DNA of 11,256 nucleotides, taken from positions 1 to 11,256 of the forward strand of contig MFYT01000046.1 in assembly GCA_001789205.1 (NCBI GenBank), read 5' to 3'. Positions 1 to 11,256 of the stretch are shown here, piece by piece; within the stretch, counting starts at the first letter, position 1; each line of letters begins with the position of its first letter. The stretch is from Candidatus Raymondbacteria bacterium RIFOXYA2_FULL_49_16 (GTDB lineage: Bacteria; Fibrobacterota; OXYB2-FULL-49-7; XYB2-FULL-49-35). A program made the position numbers and the translations under genes. The notes beneath the pieces were generated by a model that made no database searches, was not told the origin of the DNA, and saw nothing but the letters and a program-made list of their open reading frames with translations.

Positions 1-90
1 CCCCGAAGACCGAATGAAGAGCCGTATGCGGGAAAGCTGCTCGTACGGTTCCGCGAGGGGCTGGGCAGGCAACTGCCCGGTCTACTCAAC
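1..90 (+). mobile_element. Group II intron, 3' end only (domains V and VI and 3' splice site)
   Basis: The first 90 bases carry the conserved 3' architecture of a bacterial group II self-splicing intron (a retroelement that usually encodes a reverse transcriptase/maturase in domain IV). Seen: a domain V hairpin at 19-51, a domain VI hairpin at 55-87 with an unpaired A at 84, and the tail CTCAAC ending at 90. A84 is the seventh base from that end, the normal distance for the branch-point adenosine. The first 18 bases are probably the linker from domain IV. The intron's ORF and domains I-III must lie left of the window, so completeness and class cannot be judged. The exon that follows begins exactly with in-frame codons of a signal peptide. 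Confidence 0.85.
19..87 (+). ncRNA. Group II intron catalytic domains V and VI
   Basis: Domain V (19-51): outer stem GAGCCGTA (19-26) pairs with TACGGTTC (44-51). It includes the catalytic AGC triad at 20-22, a two-base CG bulge at 42-43, a T-T mismatch (27/41) and an apical stem GCGG/CTGC closing a loop that contains GAAA. Domain V is usually 34 nt; this one is 33 nt, with the apical part one base off the common form. Domain VI (55-87): GAG pairs with CTC, GGG with TCT (G-U rich), and CTGGGCAG (61-68) with CTGCCCGG (73-80), capped by a GCAA loop. A84 is bulged and is the expected branch point for lariat formation. Confidence 0.85.
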
Positions 91-1516: not shown

Positions 1517-3079
1517 ATGAACTGTTCCAAGATATCATGTCTTTTTGTCTTTGCAATACTGTTTTCCAATGCACAGGCAATACAATTCAAATGGGGTCCG
1601 GTTATTGAACATGCCTCACAGACCTCGCTCCAGATCCGTGCCACTACCGATTCCGCAGCGGATGTCATATTAAACTACGGCATTGTATTCGTGACGGAGA
1701 ATAATGATACAATAAGCAATACTGACAGCGCTGTTTTTGCACTGTCGGGGCTTGTGCCAAACCAAGTGTATCAATACACCCTTTACGCTGGAAATGCAAC
1801 CAGAACAGCAACATTCAGGACACTGCCTGCACGCGGACAGCGCGCGCACGTGGCTACGCACGGCGATGTACAAGGCTCAGGATTCTGGTTCACCTATTAT
1901 GTGGGACCTTCCATGCTTATGCAAGACTCACTGGATGCGTTTAACGCTTATATCATGACTGGGGACTATATAAATAATGGAAACGCCGTGGAATGGGACA
2001 GCTATTTCAATCATTCAAGGCTCCTCCTCGACCATATACCTTCTTTCCCTGTCTGGGGCAACCATGATGTAGGCGGCGATATGCCAATCTACAATGTATT
2101 CCCGGAATATAATCCACTGAACAAGCTCTATTATTCATTCGACGCAGGCAATGCGCATTTCTCCGTGGTCGACGGAAGCTGCTTCAGGAACAACACGGCA
2201 CAGCAGCAGTGGCTGAACAACGATCTTGATACATCGACTGCGCTTTTTAAATTTGTCTTCTGCCATTATTCTCCAATCGGGTCAGGCAGCTACGGCATGT
2301 GTACGTATGCCATGGGTCAGATAATGCCTATTCTGGATGCCCATAATGTGGATGCATATTTTGCGGGCCATAAGCATTCATATGAACGAAGCAAACCTGT
2401 TTGTTATGGTCCCGGCTCTCCAGATAGCGGAATGCTGTGCGACAACGGAACATACTTTTTTATTGCTGGAAATTCGGGACAGAACCTGTGGGATGATCCT
2501 GCGACCTGGCCAACGGCATTTGACACAGGGGCCTATCACGGTTATGTGGACATTGTCGTGGAAGACAGCGTTGCCAGAATCCAGTCGATGGGTGCGAATT
2601 GGCCCTCTTATTGGGACGCGGCAAATGACTGGCAGCTGACCGACGGAATGTATTTTTCCAAACAGTATGATATCATGAATAAATTCCTGGTGTTTGACTC
2701 TGTTATCATTGATAAACGGCACGAGTCATCGGCTAGGGAAAAGGGGATGAACAAGACAACAGCACCGTGGATGGAAGTATCGCCGAATCCGTTCAATCCG
2801 ACTGCAAGAATAGCCGTCAGCTCGCCTCGCTTCGCCAGACTCGCCAGCGAGTCTAGGTGGGCGGGCGAAGCGGGCGGGCAGCGGGCAGCGGGCGGAGAAA
2901 AGACGGAAATATATATTTTTAATGTTCATGGAAAACTAGTTCAGAAGATGCCTGCTGACTTCTGCCAGCTGACTTCTGGCATTACATGGGATGCATCGGA
3001 TCTGCCCAGCGGAGTTTATGTCATTAAGGCCATGGCAGGGAACGTAGTGCTAATAAAAATGGCGACCCTGCTAAAATAA
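1517..3079 (+). CDS. Secreted purple-acid-phosphatase-like metallophosphoesterase with T9SS sorting tail
   Basis: A 520-residue predicted exported phosphoesterase using a two-metal calcineurin-like site. Residues 1-21 form a signal peptide ending NAQA. Residues about 22-103 resemble the fibronectin-like N-terminal domain of purple acid phosphatases. The catalytic domain (about 108-360) shows HGD (D117), TGD (D150), GNHD (181-184), an FCH histidine (H250) and GHKHSYER (284-291), so all the main metal-ligand motifs are present. Residues about 420-520 form a type IX sorting domain, split by a Gly/Arg/Ala-rich insert at about 435-462 that corresponds to a GC-rich palindromic DNA element. It is the second gene of an operon with the PHP hydrolase and ends at a hairpin terminator. 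Family assignment is firm; the physiological phosphate ester is unknown. Confidence 0.9.
   Translation: MNCSKISCLFVFAILFSNAQAIQFKWGPVIEHASQTSLQIRATTDSAADVILNYGIVFVTENNDTISNTDSAVFALSGLVPNQVYQYTLYAGNATRTATFRTLPARGQRAHVATHGDVQGSGFWFTYYVGPSMLMQDSLDAFNAYIMTGDYINNGNAVEWDSYFNHSRLLLDHIPSFPVWGNHDVGGDMPIYNVFPEYNPLNKLYYSFDAGNAHFSVVDGSCFRNNTAQQQWLNNDLDTSTALFKFVFCHYSPIGSGSYGMCTYAMGQIMPILDAHNVDAYFAGHKHSYERSKPVCYGPGSPDSGMLCDNGTYFFIAGNSGQNLWDDPATWPTAFDTGAYHGYVDIVVEDSVARIQSMGANWPSYWDAANDWQLTDGMYFSKQYDIMNKFLVFDSVIIDKRHESSAREKGMNKTTAPWMEVSPNPFNPTARIAVSSPRFARLASESRWAGEAGGQRAAGGEKTEIYIFNVHGKLVQKMPADFCQLTSGITWDASDLPSGVYVIKAMAGNVVLIKMATLLK
2820..2899 (+). repeat. GC-rich palindromic element inserted in frame in the sorting domain of the phosphoesterase
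   Basis: A nested inverted repeat sits inside the coding sequence. The inner arms are AGACTCGC (2837-2844) and GCGAGTCT (2847-2854), separated by CA. The outer arms are CGCTTCGCC (2828-2836) and GGCGAAGCG (2864-2872). They are followed by GCGGGC-type short repeats to about 2895. The segment is much richer in G+C than the flanking gene. It encodes about 27 residues (SPRFARLASESRWAGEAGG and onward) that have no counterpart in the sorting tail of the neighbouring PHP protein. The reading frame is kept. This has the look of a mobile palindromic element (REP/MITE or RPE-like); the edges are approximate. Confidence 0.7.
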
Positions 3080-3101: not shown

Positions 3102-3858
3102 AGGATTGGTCCTGGGCTTGCAGCCACGCCAGATTATCCCGGATTAGGCCTTCGTCGCTGGCCATTTCCAGGGAACACCATATGGGACTGCGGGGAACAG
3201 CGGCAAGAACCGTGCTGAAAGAAATGGGGGCTTGGGCCAAGGGTTTGGGCGAATAACCGGTTTCAGGCGATTGGACGCCCCATTTCAAGTGGAAGTGGGC
3301 GATCAGCGGAGCAAGACGGCCATAAGCTTCAGTCAGGTCCTCCTTCAAGAACCACGTATTGAAAAGATCAAAAATAAACCTCACGTTCTTTGAAGCGGCT
3401 TTTTGATACAGCGCCAGACAGTGGTCCACAGTATCGTGGGGCTGGCCATCATGGGTCTCCAGGTAGACCTCTAATCCCCTAACAGCCGCTGCTTCGGCAA
3501 ACTCCCGCAGCTTGCCGGGCAGATTGTCGGCCGCGTTAAAAGTGTCCCCGAAAACCTTGATCCCTCTGGCGCCCACAGTACTCGCATAATGAACCAGAGC
3601 GTTTCCATGTTCCCAAAACCTGGCTCCCCAGGGGACCGAAAGGCAGACAGCCTCAATCCGTTTTTCCTTAAGCGCGTCCCTCACCTTTATCGGTGAAACA
3701 GCAGCCAGATGGGGAAGCCATATCTCCAGACCATGTATCCCCAGATTGGCGCAAAGGTCGATTATCGTCATCAGTCCCGTTGAGTAACGCCAACTGATGG
3801 AGCATAGGGCGGGTTTAAGCCTATGCATGTCTTCATCCGCAATACGCAGGTTGTTCAT
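3100..3858 (-). CDS. Sugar phosphate isomerase/epimerase-like protein (xylose-isomerase-like TIM barrel)
   Basis: A 252-residue protein without signal peptide or membrane segment, so cytosolic. It fits the AP-endonuclease-2/xylose-isomerase-like TIM-barrel family, which uses a divalent metal to isomerise or epimerise sugars and related compounds. Visible family signatures are GLEIW (E45), LETHD (E134, H136), FIFDLFNTW (D164), HFHLKWG (H188, H190) and SLEMA (E231); E134, D164, H190 and E231 are the likely metal ligands. The start ATG overlaps the TGA stop of the upstream PL8 gene as ATGA, with AGGTGA (3869-3874) 10 bases before it, so translation is probably coupled to the lyase. This suggests it handles a product of polysaccharide breakdown, but the exact substrate cannot be read from sequence. 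It is the last gene of the minus-strand operon. Confidence 0.85.
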   Translation of the reverse strand: MNNLRIADEDMHRLKPALCSISWRYSTGLMTIIDLCANLGIHGLEIWLPHLAAVSPIKVRDALKEKRIEAVCLSVPWGARFWEHGNALVHYASTVGARGIKVFGDTFNAADNLPGKLREFAEAAAVRGLEVYLETHDGQPHDTVDHCLALYQKAASKNVRFIFDLFNTWFLKEDLTEAYGRLAPLIAHFHLKWGVQSPETGYSPKPLAQAPISFSTVLAAVPRSPIWCSLEMASDEGLIRDNLAWLQAQDQS

Positions 3859-6800
3859 TTTGAGAGTATCACCTTTTTTTGAATATTTTTACCATTGGCA
3901 AGCGACAGCCGGACAACATAGACGCCCGTGGAAACACAGCGGCCCCGGTCATCGCGTCCGTTCCAGACAATCCGGTCCATACCGCGGACTCCTGATAGCA
4001 CCCATGAACGCACGATCCCGCCCTTGACATCGAACACGGTCAGCCTGGGACTTTTCCGGTCTCCTGAAGCGATTGGGATGAAAAAAGTCATGGTGACCGT
4101 GGGATTGAAAGGATTCGGTGATATTTCAAGAAACGGGGCTCGCAACGCGTCTGGTTCGCTGGCGCGGCCCATGGAGCCTGGGTTGATCCATACTTCCAGC
4201 ACTGGCGGTGCCCCGCTTTCCCGGCTTTTAAAATCAAGATAAACGCCATCACTCACCGGATTGTATAGCCCAAGCGAATAAAAGGAATCAGAAGCTGCCT
4301 GGGCCTGCAGGCTGGCGGTTAGGTTGGCATATTTCCATCCTATAGAATTGCCGATGACGATAGTGTCAACAGCGCTGCCGAGTGCGGGCTGGTTTGACCA
4401 GGTGATGCTCCCCTCCTGCCACGCATCGTCAGCAATGGTGTTAACGCTGATATTGGCGGTCACGGCTGATGCGGAGTAAAGCTTCAATACGGCAGAATCC
4501 ACAGTCATGCCGGCAATGTTGGAAAGATCAAATTTCAGAAAGACACGCCGCGTATAATCCAAGTCAGAGGTCTTGATGGTAAGTACCGAATCGTTACCAT
4601 AATTGGTACCAGCAAATGTTCCGCCCCGTGTAAAGGCATCCGCGATTGGCCGGGCAATATAAACAGGACGGACCGTAAGCGCAGCCTGGGTGGAAAACCC
4701 CAGCACCGTGGAGGAGCAGCGAACACTGCCTGAACCCGGTGTCCAGCCTGTAACAAGCCTGCCTGTGGAATCCACGGTCCCGAGTGTTTCCGGCGTCATG
4801 GACCAGACCAGACCGTCCGTGAGCGTGTCCGCGCTGCTGTCCGGAAAAAGACCCAAGGCAGTTAATTCTATAGTGTCAGCAATTCCCGCCATAACGGAAG
4901 ATGGGCTGATCGCCATTCCTTCTATCAGGAGCTTCCGTAGAACAATATGCACGTCAGTGGTCTCGCCTACCCTCAGTACAACCTGATCGACTATTGCCAC
5001 CTGCCAGCCGTCACGCTGGACTGTTATCTGGTTGGCGCCGGTGTCAGCCTTGACAACAGCAATACCGGAAGCGTCCGTAAAGCCGGTGTTGCTCGTGTTC
5101 TTCCGGACCGAGCAGAGCGCGCCTGGTATGGGATCGCCTGTAGCGGAATCATGAACAGAGATTCGCGCGTAACCAAAGACCTTGGGAATGCGATGGAACA
5201 CGGCGTAGACACCCAGGCCAGTGCCCGGCGATGCAAAGGAAAGTATTGTCGTGATACTGTCCGTGGAAACGGTCATTGTCCGGGTAGATTGGACCAGTGA
5301 CAATGGCTCGTCAATGCGAAAACGGAGCGTCGCGCTCTGTCTGGGCGGATAAGTTGCGGAAAAATACAAACTGTCCGGTGTAATACGACAGAAGACAATA
5401 CTCGGACTATCGGCCTTTACCAAACCGCATTCTCCCGCCTTCCAGAACACTGCGCTAAACGCGTTCAAACCCGCGTGGCTGACAGCGTGCAGGGTATCGC
5501 TGTTTTCCACGATGGAAAAAACCGGTGAGGCGGCATAGACGGCCATATCCAATATGCTTTTATTGGGCAGAACAGCATAGGCATAAGAAGCTTTTACGGC
5601 ATTAACACCATGGTTCATCCAGAGCGTAAGCATAGGATTGGTACGCAAAATGGTATCTCCTATACCGATGTTGCTCCAGCGGCCGGTCTGATTGGCCGTT
5701 TTTCCGCAAAGATCGGTCCCGCCTGGAAAATAGTATCCAATGCTGTCACAGGCTGCCCAGGCCGCATCGGTAATGGTCCCCGACCAGCCGGTACCCGTGG
5801 CAACGGTCGTACCGTTAAAGACAAGAGGCGCATTGGCCGCGGACAAGGGACGCTGGTTCACAATTGTTTCCGCGGAATCAGTTGACGGACAGTTGACATC
5901 GCTGCCCAGGCAAACCAGCTCCCCATCAAAAAAGAACCAGCTCTTTTTCGCGGTCAGGACTTCCCCATTACTGGAAAAATCCATTGCCGAAGCGCCGTAA
6001 GGCCCGCATTCCACTCCGCCCACAAAAGGACGGGAATTGGAATAGGCCGCGCCGGTTGGGTAGCTCTTTTTCTGGACCGTGATGCCAGGAAGACGGTTCC
6101 AGTCGAGAGTGGGAATCACGTCGTTTGTAGTGTACTCGTCCCCGTTCCGAAGAATGTACGTCATGCCGTCCGAAAGGTGCCACGACTTCTTGCCCTCGTT
6201 GTTCACCAGTTCCGATCCGGTGATGCCCGGTCCCATCATTTTAACCGACAGGTGATAATCGGGACGTTTATGCACTGTGAAGTAGGTGGCCCAATAATTT
6301 TTGTGCCCCAGGGGCCAGGAAGCCGTGTTTCCTTCGTTTTTAACCGCCGACACACCTGCGGCTATCTCCACCGGCAGGGCGGCGCTAAAGGTCTGAAGCG
6401 CTTTACGGGCGGCATTCTGAAAAAGCGTCTGATAAGGACCGGACTGAACCGCCATCAGGACCAGCGCGGTCAGATTTCCGCCCAGCCCCTCGCGGCGGGT
6501 AATGCTTCTTCCGATGACAGAAACGTCGTAAGAATTATGATACAGGCACCAGGCAGTTCCCTCGGCATTAAAGTTCGTGATGACGTCAAAATTAACCTGC
6601 GATAACATATAACTGGTATTACGAGTAAACAACAGGTAACGAGGGCCGTCTGCCGCTACCTGCGCCCCATACCCGCCAATGTAGAGTTGGTTACTATGAT
6701 GAATACAAGAGTAATCAGGACGGATACCGTCGTAGCTGGAATGGATGGTCAGTTCACCTTGTGCAAGGGTCCGTGCCCGGTTGATATAGAGTAAATCACC

Positions 6801-7415
6801 GGAAACAATGCCATAGTACAAATTACCCAAAGCCTGCGTAACCATATCGCCAGGATTGGATGGTGGATTAGGATAATCCAGGCACCATTTCAACGCGGCG
6901 GAGGCTTGCGCAAAAATCGCGGAATCCACGTGTCCCTGCATAAGCAGAAGCGCGGGCCCGTAGTACATGGGGATTCCCTGGTACCAGTACCACCAGTTGT
7001 TGATGCGTGAGACCCCGCTGTAGACGAGATCATGGATGGAGTCCAACGCGAGTTCCATGGCGTTCCGGATGCTGTCACTCCGGTACAGCCTCTGCCCCGG
7101 AGTGGCATAAGCCAACGCCATCTGTTTCATTCGCGAATAATGGCTGATAGCCTGCCATTCCCCGCCGTAGGCAAGTGAAATAGTGTAATCGATATCCGGC
7201 CAGCCTCCGCGCGGTTGGCAATCGTTCATATAATTACGGGCCGAATTCTCCAAGTCAGTCAGCGCCTGGGCCACAACCGGATCGTTCGTGTCAGCACCCG
7301 CACCGGTCATGTAATTGATGACATTGGCGCGCAGTGTGTCGACATCCGCTGCTTCTGTCCGGATAGACAAAAACGCCGCGGCAGCTAACAGCAGGAAAAC
7401 GGAGAATTTCAACAT
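3855..7415 (-). CDS. Polysaccharide lyase family 8 (PL8) enzyme with DNRLRE module and T9SS sorting tail (copy 1)
   Basis: A 1186-residue exported lyase of the chondroitin AC/hyaluronate/xanthan lyase family, which cleaves uronic-acid polymers by beta-elimination. Numbering from ATG 7415: signal peptide 1 to about 23 (cut near TEAA-D), then the alpha/alpha-toroid with GGWPDIDY, the aromatic patch NNWWYW (W141, W142), catalytic H240 and Y249 in DYSCIHHSNQLYIGGYG, GRSITR (R303, R307) and NNEGKKSW (E407). Beta-sandwich domains run to about 715. They are followed by a carboxypeptidase-regulatory-like domain (about 745-830), a Big2-like domain (about 832-916), a DNRLRE/CBM96-like module (about 920-1080) and the sorting domain (about 1098-1186). 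At the usual catalytic Asn position (TGAN in copy 2) this protein reads NPGD, giving D190. The ATG is chosen over an earlier GTG at 7436 because AGAAAGGG lies 5 bases before it. The specific polymer is unknown. Confidence 0.9.
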   Translation of the reverse strand: MLKFSVFLLLAAAAFLSIRTEAADVDTLRANVINYMTGAGADTNDPVVAQALTDLENSARNYMNDCQPRGGWPDIDYTISLAYGGEWQAISHYSRMKQMALAYATPGQRLYRSDSIRNAMELALDSIHDLVYSGVSRINNWWYWYQGIPMYYGPALLLMQGHVDSAIFAQASAALKWCLDYPNPPSNPGDMVTQALGNLYYGIVSGDLLYINRARTLAQGELTIHSSYDGIRPDYSCIHHSNQLYIGGYGAQVAADGPRYLLFTRNTSYMLSQVNFDVITNFNAEGTAWCLYHNSYDVSVIGRSITRREGLGGNLTALVLMAVQSGPYQTLFQNAARKALQTFSAALPVEIAAGVSAVKNEGNTASWPLGHKNYWATYFTVHKRPDYHLSVKMMGPGITGSELVNNEGKKSWHLSDGMTYILRNGDEYTTNDVIPTLDWNRLPGITVQKKSYPTGAAYSNSRPFVGGVECGPYGASAMDFSSNGEVLTAKKSWFFFDGELVCLGSDVNCPSTDSAETIVNQRPLSAANAPLVFNGTTVATGTGWSGTITDAAWAACDSIGYYFPGGTDLCGKTANQTGRWSNIGIGDTILRTNPMLTLWMNHGVNAVKASYAYAVLPNKSILDMAVYAASPVFSIVENSDTLHAVSHAGLNAFSAVFWKAGECGLVKADSPSIVFCRITPDSLYFSATYPPRQSATLRFRIDEPLSLVQSTRTMTVSTDSITTILSFASPGTGLGVYAVFHRIPKVFGYARISVHDSATGDPIPGALCSVRKNTSNTGFTDASGIAVVKADTGANQITVQRDGWQVAIVDQVVLRVGETTDVHIVLRKLLIEGMAISPSSVMAGIADTIELTALGLFPDSSADTLTDGLVWSMTPETLGTVDSTGRLVTGWTPGSGSVRCSSTVLGFSTQAALTVRPVYIARPIADAFTRGGTFAGTNYGNDSVLTIKTSDLDYTRRVFLKFDLSNIAGMTVDSAVLKLYSASAVTANISVNTIADDAWQEGSITWSNQPALGSAVDTIVIGNSIGWKYANLTASLQAQAASDSFYSLGLYNPVSDGVYLDFKSRESGAPPVLEVWINPGSMGRASEPDALRAPFLEISPNPFNPTVTMTFFIPIASGDRKSPRLTVFDVKGGIVRSWVLSGVRGMDRIVWNGRDDRGRCVSTGVYVVRLSLANGKNIQKKVILSK
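3869..3874 (-). promoter_or_regulatory. Shine-Dalgarno of the isomerase-like gene, inside the end of the PL8 gene
   Basis: AGGTGA on the minus strand, 10 bases before the ATG at 3858, lies within the last codons of the upstream lyase gene. With the ATGA overlap it supports the start at 3858 over the internal ATG ten codons later (MHRLKPALCS). Confidence 0.55.
4105..5273 (-). repeat. Duplicated C-terminal module, copy in PL8 copy 1
   Basis: This segment encodes the end of the PL8 region (from VSTDSITT), the carboxypeptidase-regulatory-like, Big2-like and DNRLRE modules, and the linker up to SPNPFNP. It aligns along its whole length with 7663-8837, with a net 6-bp length difference (two single-codon indels). 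Long stretches, such as those around the Big2-like and DNRLRE parts, are almost identical in DNA. On both sides similarity to copy 2 falls off quickly. Confidence 0.85.
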
Positions 7416-7420
7416 TGCAA

Positions 7421-7428
7421 CCCTTTCT
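7421..7428 (-). promoter_or_regulatory. Shine-Dalgarno of PL8 copy 1
   Basis: AGAAAGGG on the minus strand ends 5 bases before the ATG at 7415. It lies inside the 24-bp gap to the upstream PL8 gene and decides for ATG 7415, because a start at GTG 7436 would translate through it and put seven unneeded residues before the signal peptide. Confidence 0.75.
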
Positions 7429-7439
7429 GTAAACACATT

Positions 7440-7690
7440 CTATTGAATATACACCAGTTTCCTCTCCAGTATTTTTGCACCGGCCTGCATGCGCAGCAGA
7501 TAAACACCTGAAGCCTGCTGCGATCCGGACCAGATGAGCCTGTACTCTCCCGCTTCTTTTTTCCCATCCAACAGACGCGTGACCCGGCTGCCCTTTACGT
7601 CAAAAACATCAAGGACCACTTTTTGCGCAAAGGGAATTGAAAAGGTGATCACAGCGGAGGGGTTGAAAGGATTCGGCGATATTTCAAGAA
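7440..7690 (-). repeat. Sorting-tail repeat, copy in PL8 copy 2
   Basis: Encodes the sorting tail ending KILERKLVYIQ and matches 11005-11256 over its length, including shared DNA runs such as the one encoding LRMQAG. The tail of PL8 copy 1 (3855 to about 4110) is a different sequence of the same domain type. Confidence 0.75.
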
Positions 7691-10600
7691 ACAAGGCCCG
7701 CAACGCGTCTGGTTCGCTGGCGCGGCCCATGGAGCCTGGGTTGATCCATACTTCCAGCACCGGCGGTGCCCCGCTTTCCCGGCTTTTGAAATCAAGGTAC
7801 ACGCCATTACTCACCGGATTGTATAGCCCAAGCGAATACAAGGAATCCGAAGCTGCCTTGGCCTGCAGGCTGGCGGTCAGGTTGGCGTATTTCCATCCTA
7901 TGGAATTGCTGATAACGATAGTGTCAATAGCGCTGCCGAGTGCGGGCTGGTTTGACCAGGTGACGTTCCCCTCCTGCCACCCATCGTCAGCAATGGCGTT
8001 AACGCTGATATTGGCGGTCACGGCTGATGCGGAGTAAAGCTTCAATACTGCCGAATCCACAGTCATGCCGGCAATGTTGGAAAGATCAAATTTCAGAAAG
8101 GAGCGCCGCGTATAATCCGCGGAAGTCTCGGTCTTGATGGTCAGAACCGAATCGTTGCCGTAGTTGACATCAGTATAAGTTCCGCCCCTGACAAAGGCGT
8201 CCGCGATTGGCTGAATTATAAAAATGGGACAAACCGTAAGCGCGGTCTGGGCGGAAAACCCCAGCACCGTGGAGGAGCAGCGAACACTGCCCGAACCCGG
8301 TGTCCAGCCTGTAACAAGCCTGCCTGTGGAATCCACGGTCCCGAGTATTTCAGGCGTCACGGACCAGACCAAGCCGTCCGTGAGCGTATCCGCCACACTG
8401 CTGTCTGAAAAAAGTCCCAGCACAATCAACGGTAACGTGTCTATAACTCCTGCGGTTATAGGAGAGGATTCAATTTTTATTCCTTGCATCAGAAGCTTGG
8501 GAATGATAAAATGCACGTCCGTGGTTTCGCCTGCCTTCAGCACCACCGGATTGACCGTGACCAGCGGCCAGCCATACTGGTGGACCGTTACCTGATTGGC
8601 ACCGGTGTCAGCCTTGACAATCGCCATGCCGGAACCGTCTGTAAAACCTGTGTTACCCGCGTTCTTTAGGACCGTGCAGAGCGCGCCGGATATGGGATCG
8701 CCTGTAGCGGAATCGTGAACAGAGACACGCGCGTAACCAAAGACCTTGGGAATGCGATGGAACACGGCGTAGACGCCCAGGCCAGTGCCAGGCGATGCAA
8801 AGGAAAGTGTTGTCGTGATGCTGTCCGTGGAGACGGTGATAGTCTTTGACGAGCTGAGGAGGGTAAGCGGGTCGTTCAGGGTGAAATGAATTGTGGACTG
8901 AGTATGCGGTGGATAGGTGGCAGAGAAATAGAGGCTGTCCGATGTTGTGCGCCAAAAGGCCACGCAGGGGCTGTCTGCCTGGACCATACCGCACGTCCCG
9001 GGTTTCCAGAACACAGCACCCAAGGCATTCAACTGGGTGTTCTCAACGGCCTGCAAGGTGTCATTGTTCGCCACTACGCGCACATCGGGCCCAGCAGCAT
9101 AGGTAGCCATGTCCGTCCTTGAAACCGCAGGTAAAACAGCATAGGCATACTTCTGACTTAGCGCATTAATTCCATGATCGAACCACAATGTATAAATTGG
9201 AGCCGAATAAACCGTTTCAGAAGCGCTGCCGGCAAGGGACGACCATGTTCCAGATTGTACGGTTTTTTTCAAGATTACGGGAGAGGTATTTTGGAAGAAA
9301 TAATATCCAATACTATCACAATGCACCCAACTAACATTGACGAGAGTGTCCGTCCAGCCCATGGACGTTGGAAGTTCAATGCCATCCGAATAAATGGGTG
9401 CACTTTCACTCGAAAGCGGTGCCTGATTGACAATTGTCTCAACACGGTTGGTGTTGGGACATGTAATATCACTCCCCAAACAGACCATAATTCCGTCAAA
9501 AAAGAACCAACTTTTGAGCGCGGTTAAATCAGAGACATTCGCATCAAAATCCATCGCTGAAACCCCGTAGTCTCCCTGAGACAGACCACCCACAAATGCG
9601 CGTGTGCCGTATGAATAGCCAGTACCGGCCGCTCGATACTTCCTTTCAACCGTGGTCCCTGGAAGCCGGTACCAATCCAGAGCTGGACGAACGTTGTTCA
9701 GAAAGTATTCATCTCCTTTGACTGTGATGAAGGTCATTCCATCCGAAAGATGCCATGATTTTTTTCCCTCATCGTTGACCAACTCAGCGGGTTTCATCCG
9801 GCTTGAATGCATTTTAACAGACATGAAATAATCAGTGCCGCGAGAAACCGTATAATCCGATTCATTGTAATGCTTAACGCCATAAGGGAAAGCTGGAGGC
9901 ACAGATGAGGTCTTTACAGGCGCAATCATCCCTGCATATTGACTCGAAATTCCATACGGCCAGTGTTCAAGCATCTTTTTTGCCGAAGCCGTCAGTGTGT
10001 CCTGGTAATCTCCGGGAATAACAGACATCATAAGAAGCGCATAAAAAGCATTGCTCGCATACGTACTGTAGGATCGTACAATCGACCTGCCCATGACCGA
10101 CGGATCCCAGCAGTTTGCATAGACAGCCCAACGCGTTCCATTTAGAATATACTTGAAGAATGTTTCGCTGTTCGCCGAGGGTACTTCGTACGAAGTACCA
10201 CGGACAAAAAGAAAATACCGTGCAACATCCATTGCAAAAGAGCCGCCGTAATGTCCTGTCTGAAGTTGTGCCTCATGCTGGTGAAAGGAGTAATCCGGTT
10301 TTATACCTTCTCCGGAACTGGTTACACACACGGAAGCAAGCTTTGTACGGACCGTCCCCAGGCGAACCGTATTATTGGTGATGAGAGCATAGTGAAGATG
10401 GTTCATGGACTCCCATACAAGATTTGCCCCTGTACCCACGGGCGCCCCATTGATCAGATAGTTTAAAGTTCCAAGCGAGGTATTAAAAACCGAAGAATCA
10501 ATATGCCCTTGGACGAGTAAAAGAATCGGGGAAAGGTAATTGGGTAGTCCAATGGTATACCACCACCAATGGCTTTTAGTGACACCGTTATAAACATAGG

Positions 10601-10982
10601 ACTGGACATATGTTAACGCATCCTCTATCTTTCTTAAAAGCGTGTCCTGCCGGTACAACGAGATTCCTTCAGTGAAATAGGCTTGCGCCATTGTCAGTAC
10701 GCGTCCATAGTGAGCGGAAGGTAGCCCCCAAGTCGCCACCGGCACCTCATTATAATCCACATCGCTCCAGCTTCCGTTGGGAAGACACGTTGACAATGCC
10801 GTTTCTGCGCTGGAATCAAGCGAAGAAAGGGAAGCGGCCACCATGGAGTCAGCCTGGTTCGCACCTTCGGCCGTGTAGAATGCAATTACCTGCTTCCGGA
10901 CGGTGTCGATATCCGCTGCTTCTGTCTGGACAGACAAAAACACCACAACAGTCAATAACAAAAAAACGGGGAACTTAACCAT
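7440..10982 (-). CDS. Polysaccharide lyase family 8 (PL8) enzyme with DNRLRE module and T9SS sorting tail (copy 2)
   Basis: A 1180-residue paralogue of the downstream PL8 lyase with the same domain order. Numbering from ATG 10982: signal peptide MVKFPVFLLLTVVVFLSVQTEAA, then GSWSDVDY, an aromatic patch HWWWY (W139-141), TGANLV with the expected catalytic Asn (N187), DYSFHQHEAQLQTGHYG (H236, Y245), MGRSIVR (R299, R303) and NDEGKKSW (E405). All expected PL8 active-site residues are therefore present. The beta domains are followed by carboxypeptidase-regulatory-like, Big2-like and DNRLRE modules nearly identical to those of copy 1, but the last 80 or so residues (the sorting tail) match the next gene upstream instead. 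The catalytic half is clearly diverged from copy 1 and looks more AT-rich. AAGGAG lies 4 bases before the ATG. The stop is TAG at 7440-7442, 24 bp before the copy 1 start. The substrate is probably a uronic-acid polysaccharide. Confidence 0.9.
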   Translation of the reverse strand: MVKFPVFLLLTVVVFLSVQTEAADIDTVRKQVIAFYTAEGANQADSMVAASLSSLDSSAETALSTCLPNGSWSDVDYNEVPVATWGLPSAHYGRVLTMAQAYFTEGISLYRQDTLLRKIEDALTYVQSYVYNGVTKSHWWWYTIGLPNYLSPILLLVQGHIDSSVFNTSLGTLNYLINGAPVGTGANLVWESMNHLHYALITNNTVRLGTVRTKLASVCVTSSGEGIKPDYSFHQHEAQLQTGHYGGSFAMDVARYFLFVRGTSYEVPSANSETFFKYILNGTRWAVYANCWDPSVMGRSIVRSYSTYASNAFYALLMMSVIPGDYQDTLTASAKKMLEHWPYGISSQYAGMIAPVKTSSVPPAFPYGVKHYNESDYTVSRGTDYFMSVKMHSSRMKPAELVNDEGKKSWHLSDGMTFITVKGDEYFLNNVRPALDWYRLPGTTVERKYRAAGTGYSYGTRAFVGGLSQGDYGVSAMDFDANVSDLTALKSWFFFDGIMVCLGSDITCPNTNRVETIVNQAPLSSESAPIYSDGIELPTSMGWTDTLVNVSWVHCDSIGYYFFQNTSPVILKKTVQSGTWSSLAGSASETVYSAPIYTLWFDHGINALSQKYAYAVLPAVSRTDMATYAAGPDVRVVANNDTLQAVENTQLNALGAVFWKPGTCGMVQADSPCVAFWRTTSDSLYFSATYPPHTQSTIHFTLNDPLTLLSSSKTITVSTDSITTTLSFASPGTGLGVYAVFHRIPKVFGYARVSVHDSATGDPISGALCTVLKNAGNTGFTDGSGMAIVKADTGANQVTVHQYGWPLVTVNPVVLKAGETTDVHFIIPKLLMQGIKIESSPITAGVIDTLPLIVLGLFSDSSVADTLTDGLVWSVTPEILGTVDSTGRLVTGWTPGSGSVRCSSTVLGFSAQTALTVCPIFIIQPIADAFVRGGTYTDVNYGNDSVLTIKTETSADYTRRSFLKFDLSNIAGMTVDSAVLKLYSASAVTANISVNAIADDGWQEGNVTWSNQPALGSAIDTIVISNSIGWKYANLTASLQAKAASDSLYSLGLYNPVSNGVYLDFKSRESGAPPVLEVWINPGSMGRASEPDALRALFLEISPNPFNPSAVITFSIPFAQKVVLDVFDVKGSRVTRLLDGKKEAGEYRLIWSGSQQASGVYLLRMQAGAKILERKLVYIQ
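7663..8837 (-). repeat. Duplicated C-terminal module, copy in PL8 copy 2
   Basis: Direct-repeat partner of 4105-5273, about 3.56 kb away in the same orientation. The DNRLRE part is the most conserved; the linker between the regulatory-like and Big2-like domains is the most changed. Confidence 0.85.
10180..10199. repeat. Perfect 20-bp palindrome inside PL8 copy 2
   Basis: GGTACTTCGT at 10180-10189 is followed directly by its exact reverse complement ACGAAGTACC at 10190-10199, with no spacer. It lies within codons for RGTSYEVP of PL8 copy 2. It could be a protein-binding site or a chance palindrome; no partner copy was noticed in the window. Confidence 0.5.
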
Positions 10983-10986
10983 AATA

Positions 10987-10992
10987 CTCCTT
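10987..10992 (-). promoter_or_regulatory. Shine-Dalgarno of PL8 copy 2
   Basis: AAGGAG on the minus strand lies 4 bases before the ATG at 10982, within the 22-bp gap to the upstream gene. It supports ATG 10982 over the GTG at 11003. The preceding bases TGTGTTTACGGAAAGG nearly match those before PL8 copy 1. Confidence 0.75.
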
Positions 10993-11004
10993 TCCGTAAA
11001 CACA

Positions 11005-11256
11005 TTATTTCAGATATACCAGCTTCCGTTCCAATATTTTCGTCCCGGCCTGCATGCGCAGCAGATAAAGGCCTGAAGCCTGACTTGAACCGGCCCAGAT
11101 GAGCTTGTGTTCTCCCGCCTCTTTTTGCCCGTCCACAAGACGCGCAACCCGGCTGCCCTTTACGTCGAAAACATCAAGGACCACTTTTTGCGCAACGGGA
11201 ATTGAGAACGTGATTGCAACAGAAGGATTGAAAGGGTTGGGGGCAACATCAAGAAA
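11005..11256 (-). CDS. C-terminal T9SS sorting tail of a further secreted protein (partial, runs off the right edge)
   Basis: Only the last 83 codons and the TAA stop (11005-11007) are in the window. They read FLDVAPNPFNPS, then a beta-rich sorting domain ending ERKLVYLK. The segment closely matches the tail of PL8 copy 2 (FDVKGSRV, KEAGE, ASGxYLLRMQAG, KILERKLVY) in protein and DNA. The gene is 22 bp upstream of PL8 copy 2 in the same direction, so it is in the same operon and sends its product to the same export route. Whether its catalytic part is a third PL8 lyase cannot be seen here. Confidence 0.85.
   Translation of the reverse strand, partial: FLDVAPNPFNPSVAITFSIPVAQKVVLDVFDVKGSRVARLVDGQKEAGEHKLIWAGSSQASGLYLLRMQAGTKILERKLVYLK
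11005..11256 (-). repeat. Sorting-tail repeat, copy in the partial upstream gene
   Basis: Direct-repeat partner of 7440-7690, about 3.565 kb away. It is cut by the window edge, so the repeat may continue to the right. Confidence 0.7.

Follow-up and report, generated by a model that had tools for sequence, protein, structure and literature searches.

The window analysed here is a stretch of 11,256 nucleotides from contig MFYT01000046.1 of Candidatus Raymondbacteria bacterium RIFOXYA2_FULL_49_16. It encodes a secreted metallophosphoesterase that ends in a sorting domain of the type IX secretion system (T9SS), and one loop of this domain is lengthened by a nested palindromic DNA element that lies in frame. 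What the original prediction, an earlier note on this DNA, had described at one place proved to be a pattern that recurs across the T9SS tails of the genome rather than an isolated case. The features concerned, all on the forward strand, are the following:

1517..3079, +: gene that carries the element, for a secreted calcineurin-like metallophosphoesterase with a T9SS type A sorting domain (PF00149, E=5.8e-12)
2768..3076, +: T9SS C-terminal sorting domain, WMEVSPNPFNP ... ATLLK (alignment of 54 tails, AlphaFold, fold matches)
2807..2914, +: loop 1 of the sorting domain, 108 nt (loop lengths; model residues 21-40 with a predicted local distance difference test score, pLDDT, of about 55-69)
2821..2874, +: nested palindromic element, 54 nt, 18 codons, in frame in loop 1, CTCGCCTCGCTTCGCC...GGCGAAGCGGG with inner AGACTCGCCAGCGAGTCT palindrome
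2836..2853, +: inner palindrome AGACTCGCCAGCGAGTCT, apical part of the outer hairpin (sequence, fold)
2875..2895, +: three heptads CGGGCAG CGGGCAG CGGGCGG, 21 nt, 7 codons (sequence; lag-7 signal over all loops)
2942..2983, +: loop 2, a heptad tract of 42 nt, rich in pyrimidines and in part the reverse complement of loop 1 (inverted repeats I2 and I3, 14-nt direct repeat D1)

The sorting domain and its insert

The phosphoesterase protein matches PF18962 at E=6.8e-6 in an alignment that spans the insert, and its tail scores above the cut-off of TIGR04183. In profile, motifs and Ig-like C-terminal domain (CTD) fold the tail agrees with the T9SS type A sorting domain (PF18962/TIGR04183); it differs in having loops enlarged by DNA repeats, whereas the sampled tails from the same phylum are compact and carry no lag-7 signal. 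The AlphaFold model of the domain, computed from an alignment of 54 tails of the same genome, reached a pLDDT of 85.7. The sandwich is confident, with blocks of 96-98, and confidence is low only at residues 21-40, the region of the insert. The top structural matches of the model are the T9SS CTDs of NucA (8glk_D) and mirolase (8qb1_A); most sequence matches of the tail profile to solved structures were spurious repeat matches, 8glk being genuine. The sandwich is thus predicted to stay intact despite the insert, which would form a flexible, low-confidence loop. In the model, loop 1 comes after the strand at residues 12-17 and loop 2 after the hairpin formed by strands 46-51 and 57-63; alternation of the strands should place both loops at one end of the sandwich.

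The insert itself has perfect 9-nt arms (CGCTTCGCC/GGCGAAGCG) enclosing the inner palindrome, a GC content of 0.75-0.77 against 0.45-0.55 in the surroundings, and a fold that beats dinucleotide shuffles both as RNA (z -2.85) and as DNA (z -2.76). Its translation would give the stretch SPRFARLASESR. The edges of the hairpin element are at 2821-2874. Loop 1 of the window measures 108 nt, or 54+54, and insert-free tails of the same subfamily mostly have 51-54 nt there. In the neighbouring PHP/CehA-like protein (106-1506), loop 1 is compact (39 nt) and has no insert. The original prediction, which had placed GC-rich, nested palindromic DNA here, had found the reading frame still open (it is unbroken from 1517 to 3079) and had seen no such insert in the PHP protein, is borne out on all these points. 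Its insert of about 27 codons, however, stands only in part: the hairpin accounts for 54 nt (18 codons), and a further part consists of heptads, a second type of repeat and a DNA-level feature that the prediction had missed. Within the window, the two loops also share a complementary pair, GTCAGCTCGC at 2816-2825 and GCCAGCTGAC at 2964-2973.

Dispersed copies of the palindrome

We searched for copies throughout the genome (5.4 Mb, the one genome analysed in this way; some statistics come from sampled stretches). BLAST with the window element found 36 places. The core CTCGCCTCGCNTCGC has 19 exact genomic copies against 0 for the reversed control, and among the 10-mers of a 775-kb sample none is more over-represented than CTCGCCTCGC (20 observed, 1.0 expected). 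A covariance model, R1, built from 14 other copies with the window element left out, gave 47 matches at E<=1 and 35 at E<0.005 over the whole genome, and recovered the window element at E=0.001. The inner part is more particular: the only good genome-wide match to the AGACTCGCCAGCGAGTCT region is the window copy, with a related hairpin at C18:3296 (here and below, places in the genome are given by our own handles). The element has no Rfam family and no match in phage records.

T9SS tails hold a large share of these copies. Twelve of the 19 exact cores lie inside tails, against a share of ~3.0% for tails in the sampled DNA, and the core was taken from the window, not selected from tails. Likewise, 16 of the 35 R1 matches (E<0.005) fall within 14 different T9SS tail genes, and all 16 are in frame. 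Exact 11-mer inverted repeats as such are only modestly denser in tails. Outside the tails, the sole clear in-frame case is a TamB homologue (L242, C26:23121-23152), where the palindrome is read HSPRLRESEAG; this gene precedes a POTRA-containing (POTRA/Omp85-type) gene. The remaining non-tail copies are intergenic, often clustered, or lie in short unannotated frames, and no sorting-domain remnant in another frame was found near any of 21 non-tail matches.

The tail copies occur in both orientations and in at least five of the six reading frames. Two tails 3 kb apart (C39:152294 and C39:155370) share an identical 27-mer, whose reading is TRFARKARRAK in the first and LPASLAKRGERI in the second. 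Copies read from the other strand give RSPRVAAGEAG in loop 2 at C9, C14, C23 and C25, GLASLRGQSG at C39:39116 and ARLASRA at C39:128402, and each of the tails at C23:166.5k and C25:3.3k has one copy in loop 1 and another, oppositely oriented, in loop 2. Loop lengths repeat the pattern. In the AATTACG class, loop 1 mostly has 51 or 78 nt (+27) and loop 2 mostly 33, 54 (+21) or 84 (+30); in the other large tail class, the values are mostly 51-54 or 81 (+27) for loop 1 and 42 or 69 (+27) for loop 2. Since one and the same sequence is read in several frames and in both orientations, it is the DNA, and not the peptide, that spreads. The dispersed copies and further in-frame cases that the original prediction had anticipated therefore exist; the opposite outcome, no other copies and a peptide shared among homologues with unrelated DNA, is contradicted, the DNA being shared and the peptide not.

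Several copies deserve separate mention. In a T9SS tail at C31 (L123 12620, +), the element lies in loop 2 and a TAG stop follows shortly after, so that the tag looks truncated. One copy (L240, C37:42275-42305) lies in what looks like an IS91-type zinc-binding transposase gene, whose frame it apparently breaks. A longer recurring unit with at least two GC hairpins (GGAAGACCAAGACCGGGGCCCGCC ... CCGGAACAACCTGCC), mostly intergenic, was seen at C9:145923, C29:16756, C42:52901 and C61:4997 (L228, L229, L230, L239) and is perhaps a larger composite repeat. At C93 (L002 1489-1640), palindromes lie beside a stretch resembling the anticodon arm of tRNA-Phe (GGACTGAAAATCC) and a T-arm-like stretch, perhaps what is left of a tRNA that the element has split; neither ARAGORN nor Rfam supported a split tRNA gene there.

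Heptad tracts and mirrored loops

In 98 parsed tails, a set selected in part by score or by element matches, both loops are periodic at lags 7, 14 and 21, and the C-terminal part of the domain is not. At lag 7, loops 1 and 2 score 0.343 and 0.343, against 0.263 and 0.256 after codon shuffling (z about 12-13). Because 7 is not a multiple of 3, this periodicity is a property of the DNA. The heptads are of several types, namely AATTACG, AGCAAGA, AAGGTGA and CAGGCAG-like.

Moreover, the two loops of one tail tend to be reverse-complementary to each other. Mirroring, detected by local alignment, averages 6.97 within a tail versus 5.50+-0.15 between different tails (0 of 5000 permutations), and no such loop-pairing effect was found in the direct-repeat and C-terminal controls. 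The effect does not depend on the palindromes: it persists after removal of palindrome-bearing tails (6.58 vs 5.35) and after further removal of AATTACG tails (6.26 vs 5.36). It also exceeds synonymous-codon randomisation (6.97 vs 5.46, standard deviation 0.11), as does the lag-7 signal. At the RNA level, the segment from loop 1 through the middle to loop 2 folds better than shuffles (mean z -1.30, with 26 of 98 below -2); for the C-terminal control the mean z is +0.22, with 2 of 98 below -2.

These observations suggest, as a hypothesis, that local DNA-structure events such as template switching also act on the tail segment. In its strongest form, the sorting-domain segment would itself be a DNA inverted repeat, in which heptad loop arms keep copying each other through a hairpin, by gene conversion or template switching, giving each exported protein its own mirrored loop pair, and in which GC-rich hairpins lodge in the arms. 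We hold this proposal tentatively, at less than even odds. Were it true, a DNA-structure process acting on hundreds of domain copies would generate protein-loop diversity. In any event, the mirrored loops raise a testable question, namely whether a widespread secretion signal owes part of its form to DNA structure and not to protein selection.

Mirrored heptad tails independent of GC palindromes occur in several sequence classes (e.g., L084, L067, L141, L122 and L073). AATTACG heptads are also found in frame, as NYKLRITNFKS, in a dihydropyrimidine-dehydrogenase-like enzyme (L255, C64:123695-123722), between its 4Fe-4S domain and its FAD/NAD domain; the heptads are therefore not restricted to T9SS tails.

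Origin of the insert and related systems

We consider it probable, at about 0.78, that the insert belongs to a family of short, GC-rich hairpins, dispersed over the genome, that spreads as DNA, enters the heptad tracts of T9SS loops 1 and 2, is retained in frame and is translated as a harmless extension. The units of such a family would mostly be 27 or 30 nt long, the window copy being two of them nested to 54 nt. Copies would enter the two heptad-repeat tracts coding for loops 1 and 2, and only lengths that are multiples of three would be retained, since the cell continues to need the tag and the loop tolerates such additions. Free of stop codons, the GC-rich sequence could then be translated as a harmless loop extension, the insert peptide itself probably having no function. 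Dispersal may proceed through mobilisation in trans or replication-linked copying, together with tail duplication, and selection presumably removed frameshifted copies. Copying along with duplicated tails clearly adds to the copy count.

Several points weigh against this explanation. Insertion is deduced from paralogous tails and not from an empty orthologous site in a close relative, because the comparison set has no other genome of this family. No target-site duplication is recognisable inside the heptad repeats. No mobilising enzyme was identified, the four Y1 transposase genes having no copy in their flanks. Some copies are related by tail duplication, so that the independent events number fewer than 16. 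The R1 alignment consists mostly of tail copies, which biases the R1 tail count, and the tails were found by open-frame searches, which favour in-frame cases; the non-tail matches were, for their part, checked for broken tails.

Tail duplication could in principle carry more of the burden. If the element arose rarely and was then copied with the sorting domain by tail duplication or gene conversion among hundreds of loci, few independent insertions would be needed; that sister tails have the same insert (C39:152294/155370 and C23:166.5k/C25:3.3k) and that every AATTACG-class copy sits at one heptad phase, TTA^CGA, would follow naturally. Yet the copies are found in either loop and either orientation, in five frames at least and in unrelated classes (AATTACG and CAGGCAG types), and they are also present in the TamB-like gene and in intergenic DNA, so that this account seems unlikely to us. 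Intramolecular template switching needs no mobile element at all: the hairpin arms of loops 1 and 2 would copy each other during replication, making palindromes and mirrored heptads locally. It agrees with the reverse-complementarity of the loops, which remains without palindromes or AATTACG tails and goes beyond synonymous randomisation, with the heptad lags of 7, 14 and 21, and with the nested palindromes in the window, but it does not account for nearly identical 27-30-mers at loci far apart, between genes and in TamB, and as a full explanation it appears doubtful.

Alternatively, the hairpins and mirrored loops might be kept for a function in RNA or DNA, for instance as a 3'-end mRNA stem tuning decay or translation of exported proteins. 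The fold of the loop-bearing segment beyond shuffles, confined to that part of the tail, and arms that still pair though sequences vary between tails are what such a role would produce. The palindrome is missing from most tails, however, many compact-loop tails have no mirror, and the same palindromes stand in intergenic DNA and TamB, all of which makes this role improbable. Finally, loop 1 is variable in length among sorting domains, as ordinary protein-level loop variation with biased codons and no DNA repeat would have it. Against this stand the reading of the same DNA in several frames, the core 10-mer that tops over-representation in the sample, and mirroring and lag-7 signals in excess of synonymous randomisation. 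On the strength of the multi-frame reading and the synonymous randomisation we reject it.

The hairpin family that we favour resembles known repeats only in part. Rickettsia and Wolbachia palindromic elements (RPEs and WPEs) are dispersed palindromic DNA lying in frame in coding genes, apparently without inactivating them (PMC10969869; PMC4224334); RPEs are about 150 bp long, form ten families, encode a conserved peptide and reside in unrelated metabolic genes (PMC10969869). The present element is similarly dispersed in many copies and in frame in protein-coding genes, but its unit is 27-30 nt (54 when nested), it uses at least five frames without a conserved peptide, and about half of its copies lie in the repeat-built loops of one domain family. 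The likeness to RPEs drawn in the original prediction thus holds for dispersal and in-frame residence and fails for sequence and size. The best-documented coding palindromic elements are those of Rickettsiales; this would be a second lineage, with an element that is much shorter, frame-agnostic and concentrated in one domain family. It would also offer dozens of parallel natural experiments on non-coding DNA becoming protein, in which tolerance can be assayed by export.

Repetitive extragenic palindromic (REP) sequences are 20-40 nt palindromes in many copies, extragenic by definition and with GTAG/CGTC tags (PMC3733652). Size is comparable, and the genome has Y1 transposase genes, as in REP systems with their REP-associated tyrosine transposases (RAYTs); in contrast, many of the present copies are coding, and no link to RAYTs is seen. 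No consistent GTAG/CGTC-type tag was seen in the flanks of copies inspected by eye, and no R1 match was found in about 3 kb around each of the four Y1 genes, leaving the idea that palindromes adjoin these genes unsupported. With respect to miniature inverted-repeat transposable elements, the whole unit is palindromic, a target-site duplication would be indistinguishable from the heptads, and no parent transposon was found. Heptameric repeats of other bacteria (the short tandemly repeated repetitive, STRR, sequences of Calothrix, and GGGAATC of Xanthomonas and Nostoc) are tandem and of unexplained origin, with polymerase slippage proposed (PMC4692102). Tandem heptanucleotides are present here too, but they form two loops of one domain and are mirrored. 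In the papers that could be searched, palindromic or heptad repeats are nowhere described for T9SS sorting domains, which is weak evidence of novelty.

Among 59 other genomes, all of the same phylum, there are essentially no copies of the core (one match, in a different context). Tails from these genomes, which lack PNPFN and were compared by anchors, have compact loops, and the sampled ones show no signal at lag 7 (0.250 vs 0.255 shuffled). A pattern scan of GTDB contigs found no relative of the whole phosphoesterase, and the composite motif GTAATTCGCTCGCCTCGC gave six matches there, none of them in a T9SS tail. One of the six, in Candidatus Portnoybacteria (JACQXN010000024.1, L219 7030-7100), is a similar GC-rich hairpin, CTCGCCTCGCTGAAGCTATGGCGAAGCGGGC, apparently intergenic, and may hint at a wider class.

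The rest of the window holds further T9SS proteins. At the contig start, positions 17-90 (+) match the 3' end of a group II intron (domains V-VI; Rfam RF00029, 49.7 bits) directly upstream of the CehA/PHP-like T9SS protein, and the contig probably breaks inside this intron. On the reverse strand lie two adjacent paralogous polysaccharide lyase 8 (chondroitinase-like) T9SS proteins, 3855-7436 and 7440-11003, with very similar C-terminal halves, and 11005-11256 is the tail of another T9SS protein.
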